This document shows, piece after piece, positions 36,479 through 45,924 of a DNA stretch of 52,014 nt (the stretch's first letter is position 1; every line of letters begins with the position of its first letter). Source of the DNA: Treponema sp. GTDB taxonomy: Bacteria > Spirochaetota > Spirochaetia > Treponematales > Treponemataceae. Where the stretch lies: positions 1 to 52,014 of the forward strand of contig DUOS01000165.1 in NCBI GenBank assembly GCA_012838745.1, written 5' to 3'. Under the pieces are notes generated by a model, which worked only from the letters and a program-made list of their open reading frames with translations, made no database searches and was not told the DNA's origin. Position numbers and translations under genes: made by a program.

Positions 36479-37510
36479 ATGAAAATCAAGAAAAAAACTT
36501 TTGGTGTGCTTTCAAGCGGCCAAAAAGTGTCTCTATACACAATTTCAAATAAGCAAATGTCCTTTTCTGTAACCAATTATGGCTGTTGTATCACTAGCAT
36601 CATGCTACCTTCGGAACAAGGCGAGGAAGACGATGTAGTCCTTGGTTATTCAACACTGGAAGGGTATATAAAAAACCCCGTGTTTTTTGGCTGTCTTGTA
36701 GGTCGGTTTGCAAATCGTATTGCTGGCGGTACTTTTAACCTAGCAGGCAACCAGTACGATCTTACAAAAAACGACAGTGGGAATTGTCTTCATTCAGGAA
36801 ATCCTGGGTATCACAAGATGCTATGGAAGGCTAAACCTTTTTGTAATTTGAAGGAAGCGGGAATTGTTTTTTCACGGATCAGCCCAGATGGAGAACAAGG
36901 GTTTCCGGGTGAACTTGATATATCAGTTACCTATAGCCTAACCGTGAACAATGATATTGCTATTACCTATTCAGCTAAAACAGACACACCAACACCAATT
37001 AACTTTACCAATCATACTTATTTTAATTTAGGTGGGCACGATTCAGGCACGATTCTTGACCATACCGTACAGCTTTTTGCCGACCGCTATGTTCCAGTAG
37101 ATAGTCAATCTATTCCTTTGGGAGATATTGCAGACGTTGTTGGTACTCCTTTCGATTTTACATCTCCTAAGAAAATTGCTCGAGATATTGAAGCCGTTCC
37201 TGGAGGATTCGATCATACTTGGGAAGTTAATAATTCAGGAAACTTGCCAAACCCTGTCGCCAATGTCTATGATTCTGCTTCAAATCGTTCTCTTACGGTG
37301 TTTTCTACCCAACCAGGTGTTCAGTTTTATACTGGTAACCATCTTGTAAAAGAAGAAGGTAAAAACGGTTTTATTTACGAAAAACAAACCGGGCTTTGTT
37401 TAGAAACGCAACATTTTCCAGATTCGCCGAATCAATCAGAATTTCCGGACTCTATTTTGTTTCCTGGAGATCACTATCGGCAACAAACTATTTGGCATTT
37501 TGATTTTTAA
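36479..37510 (+). CDS. galM: Galactose mutarotase (aldose 1-epimerase)
   Basis: A 343-residue cytoplasmic enzyme that interconverts alpha- and beta-D-galactose or glucose. Signatures are GRFANRIAGGTFNLAGNQYD (substrate-binding Asn/Arg), NCLHSGNPGYHKMLW, the catalytic His region FTNHTYFNLGGHDSGTILDH and the catalytic Glu near the end (KQTGLCLETQHFPDSPNQ). The length is normal for the family. It stands alone between the J-domain gene and the ATPase operon; no other galactose gene is nearby. A GGAG site precedes the ATG. Confidence 0.95.
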   Translation: MKIKKKTFGVLSSGQKVSLYTISNKQMSFSVTNYGCCITSIMLPSEQGEEDDVVLGYSTLEGYIKNPVFFGCLVGRFANRIAGGTFNLAGNQYDLTKNDSGNCLHSGNPGYHKMLWKAKPFCNLKEAGIVFSRISPDGEQGFPGELDISVTYSLTVNNDIAITYSAKTDTPTPINFTNHTYFNLGGHDSGTILDHTVQLFADRYVPVDSQSIPLGDIADVVGTPFDFTSPKKIARDIEAVPGGFDHTWEVNNSGNLPNPVANVYDSASNRSLTVFSTQPGVQFYTGNHLVKEEGKNGFIYEKQTGLCLETQHFPDSPNQSEFPDSILFPGDHYRQQTIWHFDF

Positions 37511-37530
37511 TCGAAAAATCACTATATAAT
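37500..37530 (+). promoter_or_regulatory. Candidate promoter of the V-ATPase operon
   Basis: A perfect TATAAT (37525-37530) lies 22 bp before the ATG. The best upstream match is TTGATT (37500-37505), with a long 19-bp spacer, so the -35 is uncertain. A 7-bp AT-rich inverted repeat (GATTTTT/AAAAATC) overlaps it. Confidence 0.45.
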
Positions 37531-37552
37531 TATTGTTATTTAAGAGGTGAAT

Positions 37553-38170
37553 ATGGACGTTCAGTTACAGGAACTAGTCGACAAGATTAAAAAAGACGGG
37601 GTTGAATCTGCCGAATTTATGGCTGCGGATATCATAAAAGGCGCGAAAGATGAGGCAAAAAGTATTGTCGAATCAGCAAAAAAAGATGCTGAAAATTTCG
37701 TGTCCCGCGCAACAGAAGAAGCTGATCGCCTCGAAAAGGCTGCTGAAGCAGCAATTCGCCAAGCAGGGCGCAATCTTCTTATTACTTTTCGCGATAGCAT
37801 TGAAGCAGAACTTTCTGCCCTCGTAAAAAAAGAAACTGCTGCGGTATATTCATCCGACGTGCTCAAAGGTCTTATTCCATCTGCAGTAACTGCATGGATT
37901 AAGACTACTGGTACCAGTGATCTTACCGTTATACTTAACGAATCTGATAGAAACGCGCTGGAAGATTCCTTGCTTAAGGCTCTCAAGGATACCCTACCAG
38001 GTGGACTGGAACTTCACACAGACGATTCTCTTTCTGGTGGATTTAGGATTGGTACTCGAGATGGTGCTGCATACTATGATTTTTCAGCAGAAGCGGTTGC
38101 AGATCTTTTTTCTGCATATTTGAATCCACGTGTATCGGCTATTCTGGCGTCTGCCGCCAAGGAGAGCTAG
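37553..38170 (+). CDS. atpE: V-type ATPase subunit E
   Basis: A 205-residue protein, first of the V-ATPase operon. The N-terminal half is a charged helix (GAKDEAKSIVESAKKDAENF, RATEEADRLEKAAEAAIRQA), the peripheral-stalk coil. The C-terminal half (ELHTDDSLSGGFRIGTRDGA) is the globular head that binds the A3B3 ring. The ATG at 37553 is chosen because AAGAGG lies five to six bases upstream; a GTG at 37547 overlaps that site. Subunit E links the catalytic head to subunit I. Confidence 0.88.
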   Translation: MDVQLQELVDKIKKDGVESAEFMAADIIKGAKDEAKSIVESAKKDAENFVSRATEEADRLEKAAEAAIRQAGRNLLITFRDSIEAELSALVKKETAAVYSSDVLKGLIPSAVTAWIKTTGTSDLTVILNESDRNALEDSLLKALKDTLPGGLELHTDDSLSGGFRIGTRDGAAYYDFSAEAVADLFSAYLNPRVSAILASAAKES

Positions 38171-38173
38171 TTC

Positions 38174-38725
38174 GTGGCCTATTACTATTACCTTATGGCC
38201 CAGCTTCCGGCAATCTTGCCCGGAACACCCTTGGCCTGTGGTTTTGATGAATTTTATGAATTGGCTTCGCGTTATCTTTCCCGCCGAGATCAAAAAATTC
38301 TCGATAGGTTAACCCTTGAGGCTCCTCGGGATACTATCCCTACCGGTTCTCAGTTAGCCGATGAATGGCTTGCTCGTGAGCGGTCGCTTAGACTTGCTCT
38401 TGCAAAAATACGAGCGACAAAAAAAAATCGTTCACAGATGTTAACAATGGATGAAACGGAATCACTCGGTACTCGAATTTCTATTTCTCGAGCAGCGAGT
38501 ACCGCCGCCTCAAACGAGAATCCGCTAGAGGCAGAGCAGTATTTGATTGCCGTGCGCATGTCTTGGTTGGAAGAACTCCGTGGAAATCATTTTTTCGATT
38601 CAGAAGCAGTTTTTATATATGGCATTTCCTTGCTCCTCCGTGAACGCAGTGACTTATTTACCGTTGAGACGGGGCGCGATGCATATTCAACAATTTATAC
38701 CCAAATCCTTGGAGAAGAAGCATGA
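38174..38725 (+). CDS. DUF2764-like V-ATPase operon protein
   Basis: A 183-residue protein, MAYYYYLMAQLPAILPGTPL, with a helical, polar body (RMSWLEELRGNHFFDSEAVF). The YYYL.A.LP opening resembles the DUF2764 family, which accompanies V-type ATPase genes in spirochaetes and Bacteroidetes. No function is proven. It occupies the position where other operons have subunit C (the collar that links A/B to the membrane ring), and no C, F or G gene is seen here. It starts at GTG 38174, three bases after atpE, with AAGGAGAG upstream. Confidence 0.8.
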   Translation: MAYYYYLMAQLPAILPGTPLACGFDEFYELASRYLSRRDQKILDRLTLEAPRDTIPTGSQLADEWLARERSLRLALAKIRATKKNRSQMLTMDETESLGTRISISRAASTAASNENPLEAEQYLIAVRMSWLEELRGNHFFDSEAVFIYGISLLLRERSDLFTVETGRDAYSTIYTQILGEEA

Positions 38726-40509
38726 CGGATACAAAAGGAACGGTAGTCGCCGTTAATGGTAACATGATCAGCGTCAAATTTGACGGTAATGTTACTCTCA
38801 ACGAAGTAGGCTATGTACTAGTGGACGGTAAAAAACTGAAAAGCGAGATTATCCGCATACGTGGAGATCGTGCGCAGTTTCAGGTTTTTGAAATAACCAA
38901 GGGCATTCAAGTAGGTGATCCCGTAGAGTTTTCTGGCGAAATGTTATCTGTTGAACTTGGTCCAGGGTTGCTTGGTCAAGTATATGATGGATTACAGAAC
39001 CCGCTTCCGGAACTTGCACGACAAGCCGGATACTTTCTGGAAAGAGGTGTTTATTTGGATCCTCTTCCGGATGATACTCGGTGGGATTTTACCCCAGTAG
39101 CAAAAGAAGGGGATACTGTCGTTCGTGCTGATACACTTGGAACGGTACCTGAGGGGCGTTTTACTCACCGAATTATGGTCCCCTTTACCCTCAATGATTC
39201 CTACACGGTGGTTTCTGTTAAGCCTGCTGGAAACTATGAACTTAAGGAAACTATTGCTCAGATAAAAGATTCTGCAGGAACTATAATCCCTATTACTATG
39301 AGTTTTACTTGGCCAGTTAAACGAGCGATCGACTGTTATGCCGAACGACTCAAACCAGTTGAAACTTTAATTACTCAGACGCGCACCACAGATACTTTTT
39401 TTCCTGTTGCTAAGGGCGGAACCTATTGTATTCCTGGTCCTTTCGGCGCAGGTAAAACGGTATTACAGCATACTACGAGCCGTAATGCTGATGTTGATAT
39501 CGTCATCATTGCCGCTTGCGGTGAACGTGCTGGTGAGGTTGTTGAAACACTTAAAGAGTTCCCCGAACTCATTGATCCTAAAACAGGGCGTTCTCTCATG
39601 GAACGAACTATTATTATTTGTAATACATCATCCATGCCAGTTGCGGCACGAGAAGCCTCGGTGTACACCGGTGTTACCTTAGCCGAATATTATCGTCAAA
39701 TGGGTTTACACGTTCTCCTGTTGGCAGATTCTACTAGCCGTTGGGCTCAGGCTCTCCGTGAAATGTCTGGCCGGCTTGAAGAAATACCTGGAGAAGAAGC
39801 ATTCCCGGCTTATCTTGAATCGTATATTGCAGCTTTTTATGAAAGAGCTGGAATTGTTCGCCTGCGAGACGGTACAAAAGGTTCCGTAACTATTGGTGGA
39901 ACAGTTTCTCCTGCTGGTGGAAACTTTGAAGAACCGGTAACACAGGCAACCCTCAAAGTAGTTGGCGCATTCCACGGATTATCTCGTGAGCGTTCAGACG
40001 CGCGTAAATATCCTGCGATAGATCCACTAGAATCATGGTCAAAATATCCGAGCGTGATTGATTCACAGGCTGTAGAATATGCGCGTAACTTTCTCAGGAG
40101 TGGTAACGAAGTTGAACAAATGATGAAGGTTGTTGGAGAAGAAGGTACAAGTCTGGAAGACTTTATCGTCTATTTAAAGGGCGATTATTTAGATGCCGTT
40201 TACATGCAACAAAACTCCTTCGATGATATCGACGCATCTGCCTCTATTGAGCGGCAGCGGCATACGTTCAAAATCATCCTGGAAACCTTGGGTACCAATT
40301 TTGTTTTCGAAAATAAGGGCGATGCACGTAGCTGGTTTAATGCATCCCGACTTATGTTTATTGATTACAACTATTCTGAATGGATGTCCGACGGGTTTAA
40401 AAAACTCGAAGTGGAAATTCACGCTGCGCTTGAAGAAAAGTCAGACGGAATTGATCCGCGTGCGGAGAAAATGATTGCTAGAATAAAATCTGTCGAGACA
40501 GCGGAGTAA
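38722..40509 (+). CDS. atpA: V-type ATPase catalytic subunit A
   Basis: A 595-residue catalytic subunit. Walker A is PGPFGAGKTVLQH near residue 240, followed by IIAACGERAGEVVETLKEFP, the Walker B region LLLADSTSRWAQALREMSGR, and LEEIPGEEAFPAYLES. The long 'non-homologous' insert before the P-loop typical of A subunits is present (GRFTHRIMVPFTLNDSYTVV). It forms the A3B3 head that couples ATP hydrolysis or synthesis to ion transport. The ATG overlaps the stop of the DUF2764-like gene. Confidence 0.97.
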   Translation: MTDTKGTVVAVNGNMISVKFDGNVTLNEVGYVLVDGKKLKSEIIRIRGDRAQFQVFEITKGIQVGDPVEFSGEMLSVELGPGLLGQVYDGLQNPLPELARQAGYFLERGVYLDPLPDDTRWDFTPVAKEGDTVVRADTLGTVPEGRFTHRIMVPFTLNDSYTVVSVKPAGNYELKETIAQIKDSAGTIIPITMSFTWPVKRAIDCYAERLKPVETLITQTRTTDTFFPVAKGGTYCIPGPFGAGKTVLQHTTSRNADVDIVIIAACGERAGEVVETLKEFPELIDPKTGRSLMERTIIICNTSSMPVAAREASVYTGVTLAEYYRQMGLHVLLLADSTSRWAQALREMSGRLEEIPGEEAFPAYLESYIAAFYERAGIVRLRDGTKGSVTIGGTVSPAGGNFEEPVTQATLKVVGAFHGLSRERSDARKYPAIDPLESWSKYPSVIDSQAVEYARNFLRSGNEVEQMMKVVGEEGTSLEDFIVYLKGDYLDAVYMQQNSFDDIDASASIERQRHTFKIILETLGTNFVFENKGDARSWFNASRLMFIDYNYSEWMSDGFKKLEVEIHAALEEKSDGIDPRAEKMIARIKSVETAE

Positions 40510-40512
40510 ACC

Positions 40513-41808
40513 ATGAAAAAGATATATAGCAAAATTGAGTCAATTAATGGTTCCGTAATTACCGTTAAAGCAGATAACGTTACATACGGAGAACTTGCCG
40601 AAATTGAAACTGCGTTTGGAATATCCCGTGCCGAGGTTAATAAGCTCGACGGAGATACTGTTTCCTTACAAGTTTTCGCCGGTGGTCGAGGTGTATCAAC
40701 GGGAGATAAAATTCGCTTTTTGGGAACAGAAATGCGGGTAAGTTTTTCAGATAACCTCATGGGTCGAATTTTTAATGGCTCAGGAGATCCTCGCGACAAA
40801 GGTCCGGCTCTCAAGGAGAACATGGTTCCACTTGGTGGTCCGTCTGTTAATCCTGCGAAACGAATAATTGCTAAGCGGATGATACGTACCGGTATCCCTA
40901 TGATTGATGTGTTTAATACCCTCGTGGTATCTCAAAAACTCCCTATATTCTCTATATCTGGGGAGCCCTATAACGAGTTATTAGCTCGTATTGCTATGCA
41001 AGCAGAAGTAGATGTGATTGTCCTCGGTGGTATGGGTTTAAAATACGATGACTATCTATTCTTTAAGGAAACTCTTGAAGACGCGGGTGCTATGAGCCGT
41101 ACAGCAATGTTTATTCATACTGCTGCAGATCCCACGGTTGAATGTCTTATGATTCCAGATATGTGCCTTGCTGTTGCTGAACAATTTGCAATAGAGGGTA
41201 AGGACGTTCTTGTTCTGCTTTCCGACATGACTAACTTTGCAGACTCACTCAAGGAAATAGCAATTACTCAGGAACAAGTTCCGTCTAACCGCGGATATCC
41301 TGGCGACTTATACAGTCAACTTGCTGCACGGTATGAAAAGGCCGTTGACTTTGATGACGCCGGTTCTGTTACCATCCTCGCGGTAACTACCATGCCTGGA
41401 GATGACGTAACGCATCCTGTTCCTGATAATACTGGATACATTACCGAAGGTCAGTTTTATTTGAAGAACGGCCGTATCGAACCGTTTGGAAGCCTTTCTC
41501 GTCTTAAACAAAATGTTAATGGTAAAACACGAGATGATCATCGGGCCCTCATGGATAATATGATAAAGCTCTATTCTGCATACAAAGATACTTTAGAGAA
41601 GAAATCTATGGGATTCATGATGAGTGATTGGGACAATAAGCTTCTTAAATACGGAATTTTATTTGAAGATCAAATGATGGACTTGACGGTCAATATTCCT
41701 CTTGAAGGTGCCTTGGATGCTGGCTGGAAGATTCTTGCAGAATGTTTCAAACCAGTAGAAACTGGTATCAAGAGTGATTTGATTAATCAGTATTGGCCAA
41801 AACAATAA
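40513..41808 (+). CDS. atpB: V-type ATPase subunit B
   Basis: A 431-residue subunit that alternates with A in the head. It has the non-catalytic features of B: no Walker A lysine motif, [20 protein letters not shown] in that place, and conserved [20 protein letters not shown] and [19 protein letters not shown]. It is normal in length or slightly short for the family (about 430-460). Three bases separate it from subunit A. Confidence 0.97.
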
Positions 41809-41820
41809 GGGACGCGTGTA

Positions 41821-42432
41821 ATGTCTATAAAGCTGACGAAAAATGAACTAAAGTCGCAAAAAGATAGTCTCAAGCGTTTTTTGCGCTATTTGCCTACGCT
41901 TCAGCTGAAAAAACAGCAGCTTCAAACGGAAATTCGTACCATAGAAGTGCGTGCTTCACAGTTGCGTACCGAACGGGACAGCTTGAATAAAGCTTTTAAC
42001 GTATGGATTGCAGTTTTTGGCGAAGTAGATGCTTTTGACCCTGATACCGTGCAGATTCGTGAAATTCGCCGATCAACCGGAAATATTGCCGGTGTTTCTA
42101 TCCCAATATACGAAACTACTGAGTTTACTCATGCAGACTATGATTTATATCGGAAGCCTCTTTGGCTCGATACTGCTGCAGAAAAAATAGAGCAGGTGCT
42201 TGCCCTTGATCTTGAGGCTCGCATTCTAGATGAACAGGTGAGGCTCTTGCAAACCGAATTGAGAATTACAACTCAGCGCGTAAACCTTTTTGAAAAGGTT
42301 AAAATCCCAGAAGCACAGAATAATATTAAAAAGATTTCGGTATACTTGGGGGATCAGCAGGTCGCTGCAGTAGTTCGAGGGAAAATTTCCAAGAAGAATT
42401 TGGAACGGGTGGTTCAGGAGGACAGAGAATGA
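41821..42432 (+). CDS. atpD: V-type ATPase subunit D (central rotor stalk)
   Basis: A 203-residue mostly helical protein. The N-terminal LTKNELKSQKDSLKRFLRYL and LPTLQLKKQQL coil and the C-terminal LQTELRITTQRVNLFEKVKI with PEAQNNIKKISVYLGDQQVA are the paired helices of the D family. D rotates inside the A3B3 head. A partner subunit F gene is not visible in the operon. Its stop overlaps the atpI ATG. Confidence 0.92.
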   Translation: MSIKLTKNELKSQKDSLKRFLRYLPTLQLKKQQLQTEIRTIEVRASQLRTERDSLNKAFNVWIAVFGEVDAFDPDTVQIREIRRSTGNIAGVSIPIYETTEFTHADYDLYRKPLWLDTAAEKIEQVLALDLEARILDEQVRLLQTELRITTQRVNLFEKVKIPEAQNNIKKISVYLGDQQVAAVVRGKISKKNLERVVQEDRE

Positions 42433-44282
42433 TTGTACCCATGAAGAAAGTCACCCTCGTGGTCCTTGACCGAGAACGAGAGGCGGCACTCACCGCACTC
42501 AGGAAAACAGGAGTGCTACACGTAGAAAAGCAACCGTCATATTCTGATGCCTTAGATGATATTTCTGAAACATTAGCAAAAACGGATCAGGCAATGGCTA
42601 TTCTTTCTGAATTTGCGAATGTAAAGGCGGAGCGTTCTGTACCAAGCGGAAGTGATTCCGTTATGGACTATGTAAATACAGTCCTTTCTCTTCGCGATGA
42701 AAAAAAAGAAGCACAGGATCATTTTACGCGAATTTCGCGTGAATTGGATCGTCTTCAGCTTTGGGGTGAAATTGATCCAGAAGATTTTGATTATTTTGCA
42801 GAACGTGGATTGTATTTTTTCCCCTTTGAGATGTCTACAGACGATTACGCTAATCTTCCAGAGTCAGTTCGTTCTGTTTTGGTAAATCGAGACAAGAAAA
42901 CTATACGAACGCTTATTTGGGGAGAAAACGATCTTCTACATGCAGATATGCCTCGTGGGGCAACTGAGCTTGTTCTTCCTCAAATTGCAACAAAGGACCT
43001 TCGTTATCAACGTGAACAAGCAGAAAAACGGATACCCGAAATTGATGCAGAATTGCTTAACTATTCTTCTGTTTTACCAACAATAGAATCCTTTCGGATA
43101 AAACTCTTAGCCGAAAAAGAATTTGAAACTATACGGGCTGGTATGGATTTGGTTTCTGTAAATGAAGAAGAGATACACACCGCTGATCTTGCCTGTCTTA
43201 CTGGGTATCTTCCCGAAGAAAAATCCTCTGTAATTAAAAAGGCTGCAGCACATAACAGCTGGGCTTGTCTTCTTACTGATCCTTCTGATGAAGATGCTGT
43301 ACCAACCGAATTAAAGAACAACAAATTTGTAAATTTAATTACCCCCCTTACGGACTTTTTGGGCACAGTTCCAGGATATCGAGAAGTGGACATATCATTG
43401 TGGTTTTTACTCTTCTTTGGTATTTTCTTTGCTATGATATTTGGTGATGCAGGATACGGTTTTTTGCTCGGTGTTGTTGCTACCGGCGGTATTATTTCTG
43501 CCCGTAGAAAAGGTGTTGCTCCACCTCAAGCACTGTACATGCTAAATTATTTAGCCATTATGACTATCGCTTGGGGGACAATTACCTGTACATGGTTTGG
43601 AATCCCTGTCGAAAGCCTACCTAATGTGTTCCATCGTATTGCGTTACCGGCTTTTTCAAATCAAAACTCCTTAGCGCCTGAAAACATCAAGGTGTTTTGT
43701 TTTACCCTTGGCCTCATTCAAATTTCTCTAGCTCATTTAATTGGCGTAGTTCGTAATCGCAAGTCTTTCAAGGCTTTGGGCGAGATTGGCGCTCTAATGA
43801 TGACTTTTGGTATGTACTTTGTGGTGCTAAACCTTGTTGTTTCTGCAGAAAAATACCCGCTTTCAACATTCGTGCTTGGTATGATCGGAGCAGGATTTCT
43901 TATTAATTTTATTTTTATAAATTATGAGAAGTCAATTGGCTCTGGAATACTTGAAAGTCTTAAAAATATTATTACCATGTGTCTTGGTGTGGTAAATATG
44001 TTTGCTGATATTATGAGTTATATTCGTTTATGGGCGGTTGGACTTGCAGGTGCTGCCATTAGTGCTACGGTGAATCAAATGGCAGGCCCTTTCTTAGGTG
44101 GGTTCCTTATTTTTGCCGGCATTATGCTTTTGTTTTTTGGTCATGGGCTCAATTTAGTAATGAACGCTCTTTCTGTCATAGTTCATGGAGTTAGGTTAAA
44201 TACCCTTGAATTTTCGAATCACCTGGGTCTGACATGGTCAGGCTTTAAATATGAGCCGTTTTCGGAAACGGTTAAAAAATAG
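42429..44282 (+). CDS. atpI: V-type ATPase subunit I (membrane a-subunit)
   Basis: A 617-residue protein. The first half is soluble and helical (MKKVTLVVLDREREAALTAL). The second half, from about residue 320, has about seven membrane helices starting with WFLLFFGIFFAMIFGDAGYG. SYIRLWAVGLAGAAISATVN contains the Arg that is essential for ion passage in this family. Subunit I carries the two half-channels against the K ring and anchors the stalks. The length is normal. Ten bases separate it from atpK. Confidence 0.95.
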   Translation: MIVPMKKVTLVVLDREREAALTALRKTGVLHVEKQPSYSDALDDISETLAKTDQAMAILSEFANVKAERSVPSGSDSVMDYVNTVLSLRDEKKEAQDHFTRISRELDRLQLWGEIDPEDFDYFAERGLYFFPFEMSTDDYANLPESVRSVLVNRDKKTIRTLIWGENDLLHADMPRGATELVLPQIATKDLRYQREQAEKRIPEIDAELLNYSSVLPTIESFRIKLLAEKEFETIRAGMDLVSVNEEEIHTADLACLTGYLPEEKSSVIKKAAAHNSWACLLTDPSDEDAVPTELKNNKFVNLITPLTDFLGTVPGYREVDISLWFLLFFGIFFAMIFGDAGYGFLLGVVATGGIISARRKGVAPPQALYMLNYLAIMTIAWGTITCTWFGIPVESLPNVFHRIALPAFSNQNSLAPENIKVFCFTLGLIQISLAHLIGVVRNRKSFKALGEIGALMMTFGMYFVVLNLVVSAEKYPLSTFVLGMIGAGFLINFIFINYEKSIGSGILESLKNIITMCLGVVNMFADIMSYIRLWAVGLAGAAISATVNQMAGPFLGGFLIFAGIMLLFFGHGLNLVMNALSVIVHGVRLNTLEFSNHLGLTWSGFKYEPFSETVKK

Positions 44283-44292
44283 GAGCTAGAAT

Positions 44293-44715
44293 ATGAATTT
44301 TGGTATGTTTGGTGCTGCTGCTGCATTGGGTATTTCTGCGATCGGTTCCGCTATTGGTCTAGCGATTGCTGGACAGGCAACAATAGGTGCTTGGAAACGT
44401 TGTTATATGAACAATAAGCCAGCTCCCTTTATTCTCGTTGCATTTGCCGGTGCCCCTTTGACCCAGACAATTTATGGGTTTTTGCTTATGAACGCAATGC
44501 TTGCATCTGCCAAGGATTCTTGGTTTTTGCTTGGTGTCGGTGTTGTCTGTGGTTTGGCCATAGCCGCTTCTGCCATGGCCCAAGGTTCTGCAAGTGCCGC
44601 TGGTTCTGATGCGTTAGCAGAAACCGGAAAAGGGTTTTCACAGTACATTACCATCGTTGGTTTGTGTGAAACAGTTGCTTTGTTCGTTATGGTTTTCGGA
44701 CTTATTTCGGTATAA
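44293..44715 (+). CDS. atpK: V-type ATPase subunit K (rotor ring proteolipid)
   Basis: A 140-residue protein with four membrane helices in two related hairpins, each starting with a Gly-rich segment (AIGSAIGLAIAGQATIGAWK; GVGVVCGLAIAASAMAQGSA). Glu126 in helix 4 (VGLCETVALFVMV) is the ion-binding carboxylate; helix 2 has no such acid. Thr57-Gln58 and Gln97 line up with residues that bind Na+ with the Glu in E. hirae NtpK. The ring turns with subunit D. A strong terminator follows. Confidence 0.95.
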   Translation: MNFGMFGAAAALGISAIGSAIGLAIAGQATIGAWKRCYMNNKPAPFILVAFAGAPLTQTIYGFLLMNAMLASAKDSWFLLGVGVVCGLAIAASAMAQGSASAAGSDALAETGKGFSQYITIVGLCETVALFVMVFGLISV

Positions 44716-44730
44716 GGCCAGTTTATTGAT

Positions 44731-44762
44731 AAAACGGAATCCTTAGGGGTTCCGTTTTTTTT
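44731..44762 (+). terminator. Intrinsic terminator of the V-ATPase operon
   Basis: A 12-bp stem, AAAACGGAATCC/GGGTTCCGTTTT with one G-U and a TTAG loop, runs into eight T residues. It sits 15 bp after the atpK stop. Confidence 0.93.
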
Positions 44763-44799
44763 ATCCTCTGTACAAGACTCCTTTTGGCCGATACTATTT

Positions 44800-45924
44800 A
44801 TGACTATGAATACATTTAAACAACCGAGAGCCGTGCAAATTGGTGGATCAGGAAGAACCCGAACCCTTACTATCGGAGGATCCGCCCCCGTTTCAATACA
44901 AACCATGTGGAAAGCGCCTCTTTCCGCAGACTCACTCAATACTGTAGCAAAGACTTTAACTGAGTTAGAAATGCTTGGCTGCGATATTGTTAGATTTGCC
45001 GTACCAGATCATCACAGTGCAGATTTATTGGTTGCTCTTGCTAAAATGACTGATATGCCTCTCGTTGCTGATATTCATTTTGATCATACCCTTGCTTTGC
45101 GTTGCTTAGATGGAAATATTGCTAAGATTCGTATTAATCCCGGCAACATAGGTAGTACGAGTAATGTGCGGGCTGTGGTAGAAAAGGCACAGGACACCAA
45201 CGTGGCAATCCGTATTGGTGTAAATACCGGGTCTTTACCAGCCGATTTGCGTGCCCGCGTTGAATCAGTTCCAGCTGATGATCCACAGCATACTACTGTT
45301 CGAGCAGATGCACTTGTAGAAGCTGCTGCTCGTGAAGTTGCTGTATTTGATTCACTTGGTTTTAAGCCAGTAGTAGTTTCAATGAAGGCTTCTTCCGTAA
45401 AGGAAACTGTTTTTTGTAATGAACGATTTGCACAAAAATATGACATACCTCTGCATTTAGGTGTTACCGAAGCCGGACCCTTGATAGCTGGTGTGGTTAA
45501 AAGCACTCTTGCTTTTAGTCAGCTATTTTCTCTTGGTATAGGATCAACGGTTCGGGTTAGTTTATCTGATACGATAGAAAACGAAGTGCTAGCCGCTCGA
45601 GCAATTTTGTCGGAATGCGGAAAAAGACCTGGTGGCGTTACAATCGTTTCCTGTCCTCGTTGCGGCCGGGATGGATTTGATGTACATGGGTTTGTTTCCC
45701 GCTGGCAAAAAGAACTACTATCCCTTGATAAAACAATTACGGTTGCGGTTATGGGCTGTGTTGTAAACGGTCCTGGCGAAGGAAAACATGCCGATATTGG
45801 TATTACAGGTGCAGGGGATTCCATTCTTATTTTTAGACATGGAAAGATAGTACGCAAGGAAATCATTGGAAGCGATACAGCAGCCACTGATCGTGCCTTT
45901 CGTGAGGAGTTGCAAAAGCTGTGA
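44800..45924 (+). CDS. ispG: 4-hydroxy-3-methylbut-2-enyl diphosphate synthase IspG
   Basis: A 374-residue enzyme of the methylerythritol phosphate (non-mevalonate) isoprenoid pathway; it converts MEcPP to HMBPP with a [4Fe-4S] cluster. The TIM-barrel half contains QTMWKAPLSAD, DIVRFAVPD, PLVADIHFDH and KIRINPGNIGS. The C-terminal cluster domain has ISxCPxCGR-type SCPRCGRDGFD and AVMGCVVNGPGEGKHADIG. No ribosome-binding site is seen before either ATG (44800 or 44806), and a weak promoter match sits so close that the message could be leaderless. Confidence 0.95.
   Translation: MTMNTFKQPRAVQIGGSGRTRTLTIGGSAPVSIQTMWKAPLSADSLNTVAKTLTELEMLGCDIVRFAVPDHHSADLLVALAKMTDMPLVADIHFDHTLALRCLDGNIAKIRINPGNIGSTSNVRAVVEKAQDTNVAIRIGVNTGSLPADLRARVESVPADDPQHTTVRADALVEAAAREVAVFDSLGFKPVVVSMKASSVKETVFCNERFAQKYDIPLHLGVTEAGPLIAGVVKSTLAFSQLFSLGIGSTVRVSLSDTIENEVLAARAILSECGKRPGGVTIVSCPRCGRDGFDVHGFVSRWQKELLSLDKTITVAVMGCVVNGPGEGKHADIGITGAGDSILIFRHGKIVRKEIIGSDTAATDRAFREELQKL

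Follow-up and report, generated by a model that had tools for sequence, protein, structure and literature searches.

Introduction

The closest described counterpart of the protein considered here is NtpK, the rotor subunit of the V-type sodium ATPase of Enterococcus hirae. The ion site of NtpK comprises L61, T64, Q65, Y68, Q110 and E139, of which Y68 coordinates E139 and not the ion (PMC10382590). The E. hirae ring has been described as almost non-selective, running on Na+ because Na+ is in excess (PMC3692424). In 2008 Mulkidjanian et al. published the assignment of V-type ATPases (V-ATPases) to Na+ or H+ coupling on the basis of their ligands, with all predicted Na+ enzymes being polar at the Gln65 position (PMC2359735). 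Given this precedent, a Na+ prediction from pocket ligands is not categorically new. The same paper has Treponema and Borrelia V-ATPases in its table, and its tree is coloured by predicted ion.

Here we describe a subunit K gene of Treponema sp. (GenBank assembly GCA_012838745.1), located at positions 44293-44715 of a 52,014-nucleotide stretch of contig DUOS01000165.1, the whole of which is referred to as the window. From its sequence, the encoded protein (K) is very likely the rotor of an NtpK-like, Na+-coupled V-ATPase. The open reading frame and the residues Thr57, Gln58, Gln97 and Glu126 had been named in an original prediction made from the DNA letters, and the translation agrees with it. 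The gene and the codons of interest are as follows.

44293..44715, + strand: V-type ATPase subunit K (rotor), 140 aa, with a predicted Na+-type site; NCBIfam NF005174, 217.3 bits (cut-off 127), residues 1-139
44461..44466, + strand: Thr57-Gln58 codons (NtpK Thr64-Gln65), from translation and alignments
44473..44475, + strand: Tyr61 codon (NtpK Tyr68), from translation and the MAFFT alignment; role of Tyr68 from PMC10382590
44581..44583, + strand: Gln97 codon (NtpK Gln110), from translation and alignments
44668..44673, + strand: Glu126-Thr127 codons (NtpK Glu139-Thr140), from translation and alignments

The ion pocket of K aligned with NtpK

The NtpK reference sequence with which K was aligned does not differ from PDB 2bl2_A at any of its 156 residues. 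In the MAFFT pair alignment the two proteins share 30% identity (40 of 140 residues), and Thr57, Gln58, Tyr61, Gln97 and Glu126 of K pair with Thr64, Gln65, Tyr68, Gln110 and Glu139 of NtpK, respectively. The same five pairs were returned by hhalign and hmmsearch, and Thr127 pairs with Thr140. The original prediction had equated Thr57-Gln58, Gln97 and Glu126 with these NtpK residues, had noted a Gln97-Glu126 spacing of 29 common to both proteins, and had proposed an alignment with NtpK as a check; all of the named residues were found in register by the three methods, and the spacing was confirmed in both proteins. The match of Tyr61 to Tyr68 is additional to the residues named there, and lends extra support to a pocket of the NtpK type.

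K thus carries what is expected of an NtpK-type rotor, namely Glu126 as the principal Glu of helix 4, Gln97 as the Gln of helix 3, Thr57 and Gln58 as the Thr/Ser and the polar residue of helix 2, and Tyr61 as the Glu-contacting Tyr. Loss of the Na+ ligands other than Glu would be expected of a eukaryotic-type H+ c subunit, and all of the ligands are present in K. A 37-member family profile matched NtpK in hhalign with an E-value of 6.8e-7 and a probability of 91.9, and in an hmmsearch of the family profile against PDB, NtpK was the top of three matches (E-value 4.2e-4, 23.7 bits). The chance of finding T57, Q58, Y61 and Q97, the four pocket residues besides the Glu, all among the 40 identities in 140 positions is about 0.006, a crude figure that treats alignment columns as independent, and the phylum-wide conservation described below is stronger evidence than this estimate.

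Conservation of the pocket across Spirochaetota

Conservation was assessed in 156 distinct sequences of the window's rotor type, termed K1. In the search of the phylum a K match was obtained in 193 of 296 genomes, and from that search the rows examined were the best 30 (the window's own included) together with 40 picked for breadth. Gln97, Glu126 and Tyr61 were each present in 156 of 156 distinct K1 sequences. Gln58 was found in 154, that is in 154 of the 155 that could be read, the remaining two having an Asn and an unreadable residue in an incomplete row. Position 57 was Thr in 144, Ser in 11 and unreadable in one. The complete ligand set, with Ser allowed at position 57, was present in 154 of 155 readable sequences. 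When the 140 columns were ranked by conservation, four of the five pocket positions came within the first ten, and position 57, which is Thr or Ser in every readable sequence, came 47th.

One of the sets is biased, in that one of the two search patterns behind the named-scan rows (80 loci, 78 distinct) contained Thr57-Gln58 (FAGAPLTQT). These rows are counted in the 156, but the 80 loci were set aside as evidence of conservation, and the remaining three sets (51, 25 and 39 distinct sequences, some shared between sets) show it without them: Gln97, Glu126 and Tyr61 occurred in 115 of 115, and Gln58 in 113 of 115, with one Asn (L196) and one incomplete row (L194). Even the most distant K1 rows, which scored 59-65 bits (L228-L232), retained Gln58, Tyr61, Gln97 and Glu126.

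The Asn-bearing sequence, L196 (G223:C6), is the sole K1 of the 156 in which Asn replaces Gln58, and it also has Ser for Thr57; it offers a natural test of the importance of the fifth ligand. Separately, two sequences of family f6 (L204 and L205), from genomes of 0.9-1.9 Mb, have the full ligand set with Ser following the Glu.

A second V-ATPase in the same genome

The genome of the window encodes a second rotor, K2, on contig C156. K2 matched Pfam ATP-synt_C over its cut-off, with its best NCBIfam match falling below cut-off (56 bits versus 101), and consists of a single hairpin with Val in place of Gln97 and Gly in place of Thr127. It lies in a second operon (L236, G000:C156:28500-37986) ordered C-I-K-F-E-A-B-D and followed by a universal stress protein, in which C, I, F, A, B and D were assigned by Pfam, and E by position only (no Pfam match at 1e-3 and no NCBIfam match at 1e-10). 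By its residues K2 looks like a proton-type rotor, and as it is without the Na+ ligands, the pocket is not something that V-type rotors all have by default.

From the family, 42 K2 rows were collected from 41 genomes, the window's own being represented twice. The Gln position was Val in 40 of 40 rows readable by script; it was also Val, by eye, in L042, and L253 is incomplete. Glu-Gly-Ile was present in 42 of 42. By a hand-typed tally of 60 family genomes, K1 occurs in 56 and K2 in 41, with both in 40; the Na+-type rotor is thus near-constant and the proton-type rotor optional. K1 was alone in 16 genomes, five of which are single-contig assemblies at 99% completeness, K2 was alone in one (85% complete), and neither was found in three (59, 63 and 74% complete). 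These counts concern rotors; operon make-up, reduced and DUF2764-type as opposed to complete and V/A-type, was read in the window's genome only.

The co-occurrence of both rotor kinds in 40 of 60 genomes suggests that a single cell pairs a Na+ with an H+ V-ATPase. There is an even chance, in our estimation, that in most family members the same membrane holds two V-ATPases whose ion codes are opposite, one a Na+ machine with the NtpK pocket and the other an H+ machine in which that pocket has been erased. If so, sodium-motive and proton-motive force would be interchangeable through the ATP pool, for example by making ATP from a Na+ gradient driven by Rnf or decarboxylase while protons are pumped, or the reverse. 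This pairing, although it lies outside the coordinates 44293-44715, is the more interesting result and is worth following.

A third ATP-synt_C match was seen in two genomes of the same genus, at L005/L255 (G034:C100) and L004/L254 (G058:C234). That of G034 reads like an F-type c subunit, so this genome perhaps has three rotary ATPases.

The coupling ion of the K ring

The monomer model of K has four long helices and one short helix (mean predicted local distance difference test score (pLDDT) 93.7, predicted template modelling score (pTM) 0.85). It matched 2bl2 with a Z score of 17.2 and a root-mean-square deviation of 2.2 over 136 aligned residues, and K is therefore predicted to have the fold of a K subunit.

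Several observations weigh against Na+ coupling. The Thermus K subunit (H+) scored 23.5 bits with the family profile, only 0.2 bits behind NtpK, and keeps the Gln and the Glu-Thr; these residues and the PDB rank of NtpK are thus by themselves no proof of Na+, and we limited the use of that rank to support for the alignment. Eukaryotic H+ c subunits fitted the K model with Z scores of up to 18.5 (rat 6vq6_g), as compared with 17.2 for NtpK. As proton rings match the model equally or better, the fold was dropped as Na+ evidence, and the case for Na+ rests on the residues. The best PDB match of the window's subunit I was subunit I of the E. hirae V-type sodium ATPase, NtpI (E-value 1.4e-25, 93 bits), but NtpI was likewise the top match (90 bits) of the control, the subunit I encoded in the proton-type-looking second operon, and this line too was dropped. 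Finally, Rnf moves H+ or Na+ depending on the organism (PMC4511686), and the Rnf genes described below are consequently context and not proof of Na+ coupling.

The original prediction of Na+ rather than H+ coupling is nevertheless supported, since every NtpK side-chain ligand is present in K and the proton-type controls differ. In the Citrus c subunit (H+), Ile stands where NtpK has Gln110 and the Glu is followed by Ala, the helix-2 positions falling in an alignment gap, and at the Gln65 position, where the window's K has Gln58, the Thermus K has Leu. Were the enzyme a plain proton V-ATPase, which a review presumes for Borrelia, the ligand match would be functionally meaningless; this reading could appeal to the eukaryotic H+ rings that fit the fold as well as NtpK does. 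However, Citrus c and K2 have Ile or Val for the Gln that K keeps in 156 of 156 sequences, and the Borrelia statement is a presumption rather than a measurement; we consider such an enzyme very improbable. That the residue match is an accident of alignment at 30% identity is scarcely credible. Single-sequence phmmer with K alone does reach NtpK weakly (seventh of seven matches, E-value 0.13), so that the family profile is needed, but the three alignments concur and four of the five positions are in the top ten columns.

A ring that accepts either ion, forming a mixed Na+/H+ or mainly H+ machine with an ancestral, mildly Na+-favouring pocket, is consistent with the near non-selectivity of the E. 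hirae ring and with the Methanosarcina acetivorans enzyme, which is reported to couple to both ions (PMC3692424), and some Na+ ligands persist in H+ enzymes (Mulkidjanian 2008, PMC2359735). At physiological Na+, however, a ring as nearly non-selective as that of NtpK still pumps Na+ (PMC3692424), and retention of the full ligand set by 154 of the 155 distinct relatives that could be read suggests that Na+ binding is under selection. A mixed-ion machine is thus unlikely, and Na+ coupling is the reading that we favour.

In a Na+-coupled ring, Glu126 in helix 4 would be the principal Na+ ligand, Gln97 of helix 3, Thr57 and Gln58 of helix 2 and, near Ala54, a carbonyl of the backbone would complete the cage, and Tyr61 would steady Glu126. 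Na+ would enter through one half-channel of subunit I, circle with the ring and exit through the other half-channel. Stator residues Arg533 and Arg589 of subunit I pair with Arg573 and Arg629 of NtpI in the PDB-match alignment. ATP hydrolysis would drive Na+ export, and a Na+ gradient would drive ATP synthesis. We infer Na+ occupancy, half-channels, direction and partner pumps from the observed residues, alignment, conservation and gene neighbours and from the predicted fold.

Genes of a probable sodium circuit in the genome

The Na+ gradient would probably come from two pumps of the same cell, an Rnf complex and a Na+-pumping decarboxylase. The Rnf locus contains rnfC (432 bits) and rnfD (274 bits), both over their cut-offs, and an rnfG-like gene below cut-off. 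The beta subunit of the decarboxylase scored 554 bits, over cut-off, and adjoins an oadA-like gene below its cut-off. Two Rnf-type loci are present (L233 on C183 and L234 on C175), one canonical and the other divergent, with rnfC-like and rnfD-like genes below curated cut-offs. In two species of termite-gut spirochaetes a Na+ Rnf has been described together with an F-type ATP synthase (PMC13067680), and the scheme is thus not followed by all spirochaetes.

The operon of K and its neighbours

K is the seventh gene of a run on the + strand, E-DUF2764-A-B-D-I-K, and is thus encoded together with other V-ATPase subunits directly upstream; ispG follows at 44800. The remaining features of the run are listed below.

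37547..38170, + strand: V-type ATPase subunit E (peripheral stalk); NCBIfam NF002424, 237 bits, slightly below cut-off 241
38174..38725, + strand: DUF2764 protein, 183 aa, between E and A; Pfam PF10962, 43.9 bits (cut-off 24.1)
38722..40509, + strand: V-type ATPase catalytic subunit A; NCBIfam NF003220, 783 bits (cut-off 470)
40513..41808, + strand: V-type ATPase subunit B; NCBIfam NF002555, 757 bits (cut-off 431)
41821..42432, + strand: V-type ATPase subunit D (central stalk); NCBIfam NF002565, 245 bits (cut-off 189)
42429..44282, + strand: V-type ATPase subunit I (a subunit, stator); Pfam V_ATPase_I, 58.5 bits, over cut-off; NCBIfam NF004429, 591 bits, below cut-off 799
44731..44758, + strand: intrinsic-terminator-like hairpin (12 pairs) with a T run, directly after K; consensus scan

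The hairpin and T run at 44731-44758 suggest that K is the last gene of the operon, in a region where such terminator-like sites are about twofold enriched (15 in 37200-45000 versus a shuffle mean of 7.2). No subunit C, F or G was recognised by Pfam or NCBIfam among the eight window proteins scanned. The DUF2764 protein covers only profile positions 202-263 of 271, the final quarter of PF10962.

Among named matches, K was closest to sequences from environmental spirochaete bins, at 96 and 92% identity; the best cultured species was Treponema vincentii (87%). K genes of 69-71% identity were also seen in metagenome bins titled Eubacterium, Clostridia, Clostridiales and Lachnospiraceae (L108, L127, L130, L138, L145, L149 and L157), which may reflect mislabelled bins or gene transfer.

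Significance for spirochaete energetics

The coupling ion determines which pumps can power ATP synthesis in anaerobic spirochaetes, some of which are related to the agents of syphilis and Lyme disease. For Borrelia, a proton gradient is presumed in a review (PMC4033020), and for Treponema pallidum a Rnf-type pump feeding ATP synthase has been proposed (PMC7512555). A measurement of Na+ or H+ coupling in a spirochaete V-ATPase was not found in searches of an open-licence library, which is no proof of absence. That 56 of 60 family genomes encode the rotor with the conserved Na+ pocket, and 41 of 60 a second rotor that lacks it, makes the T. pallidum and Borrelia energy proposals directly testable.

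Comparison with known systems

K matches NCBIfam NF005174 (V-type ATP synthase subunit K) along its whole length above the curated cut-off, and no difference from that family was seen. In the Thermus thermophilus V/A-ATPase subunit K (H+), one hairpin has the Gln and the Glu-Thr where K has them, but the match is confined to that single hairpin and Leu, not a polar residue, follows the Glu-Thr. K2, like K, is a V-type rotor with the essential Glu; it differs in its single hairpin, in having Val for Gln and Gly for Thr, and in its C-I-K-F-E-A-B-D operon. E. hirae NtpK (PDB 2bl2) has Thr, Gln, Gln and Glu plus the helper Tyr at positions equivalent to those of K, the same spacing of 29, and the fold predicted for K. 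In contrast to NtpK, to which it is about 30% identical, K has a longer helix 1-2 loop and a shorter helix 2-3 loop, with the numbering offset along the alignment being 11, then 7 and then 13, and it sits in the gene run E-DUF2764-A-B-D-I-K.
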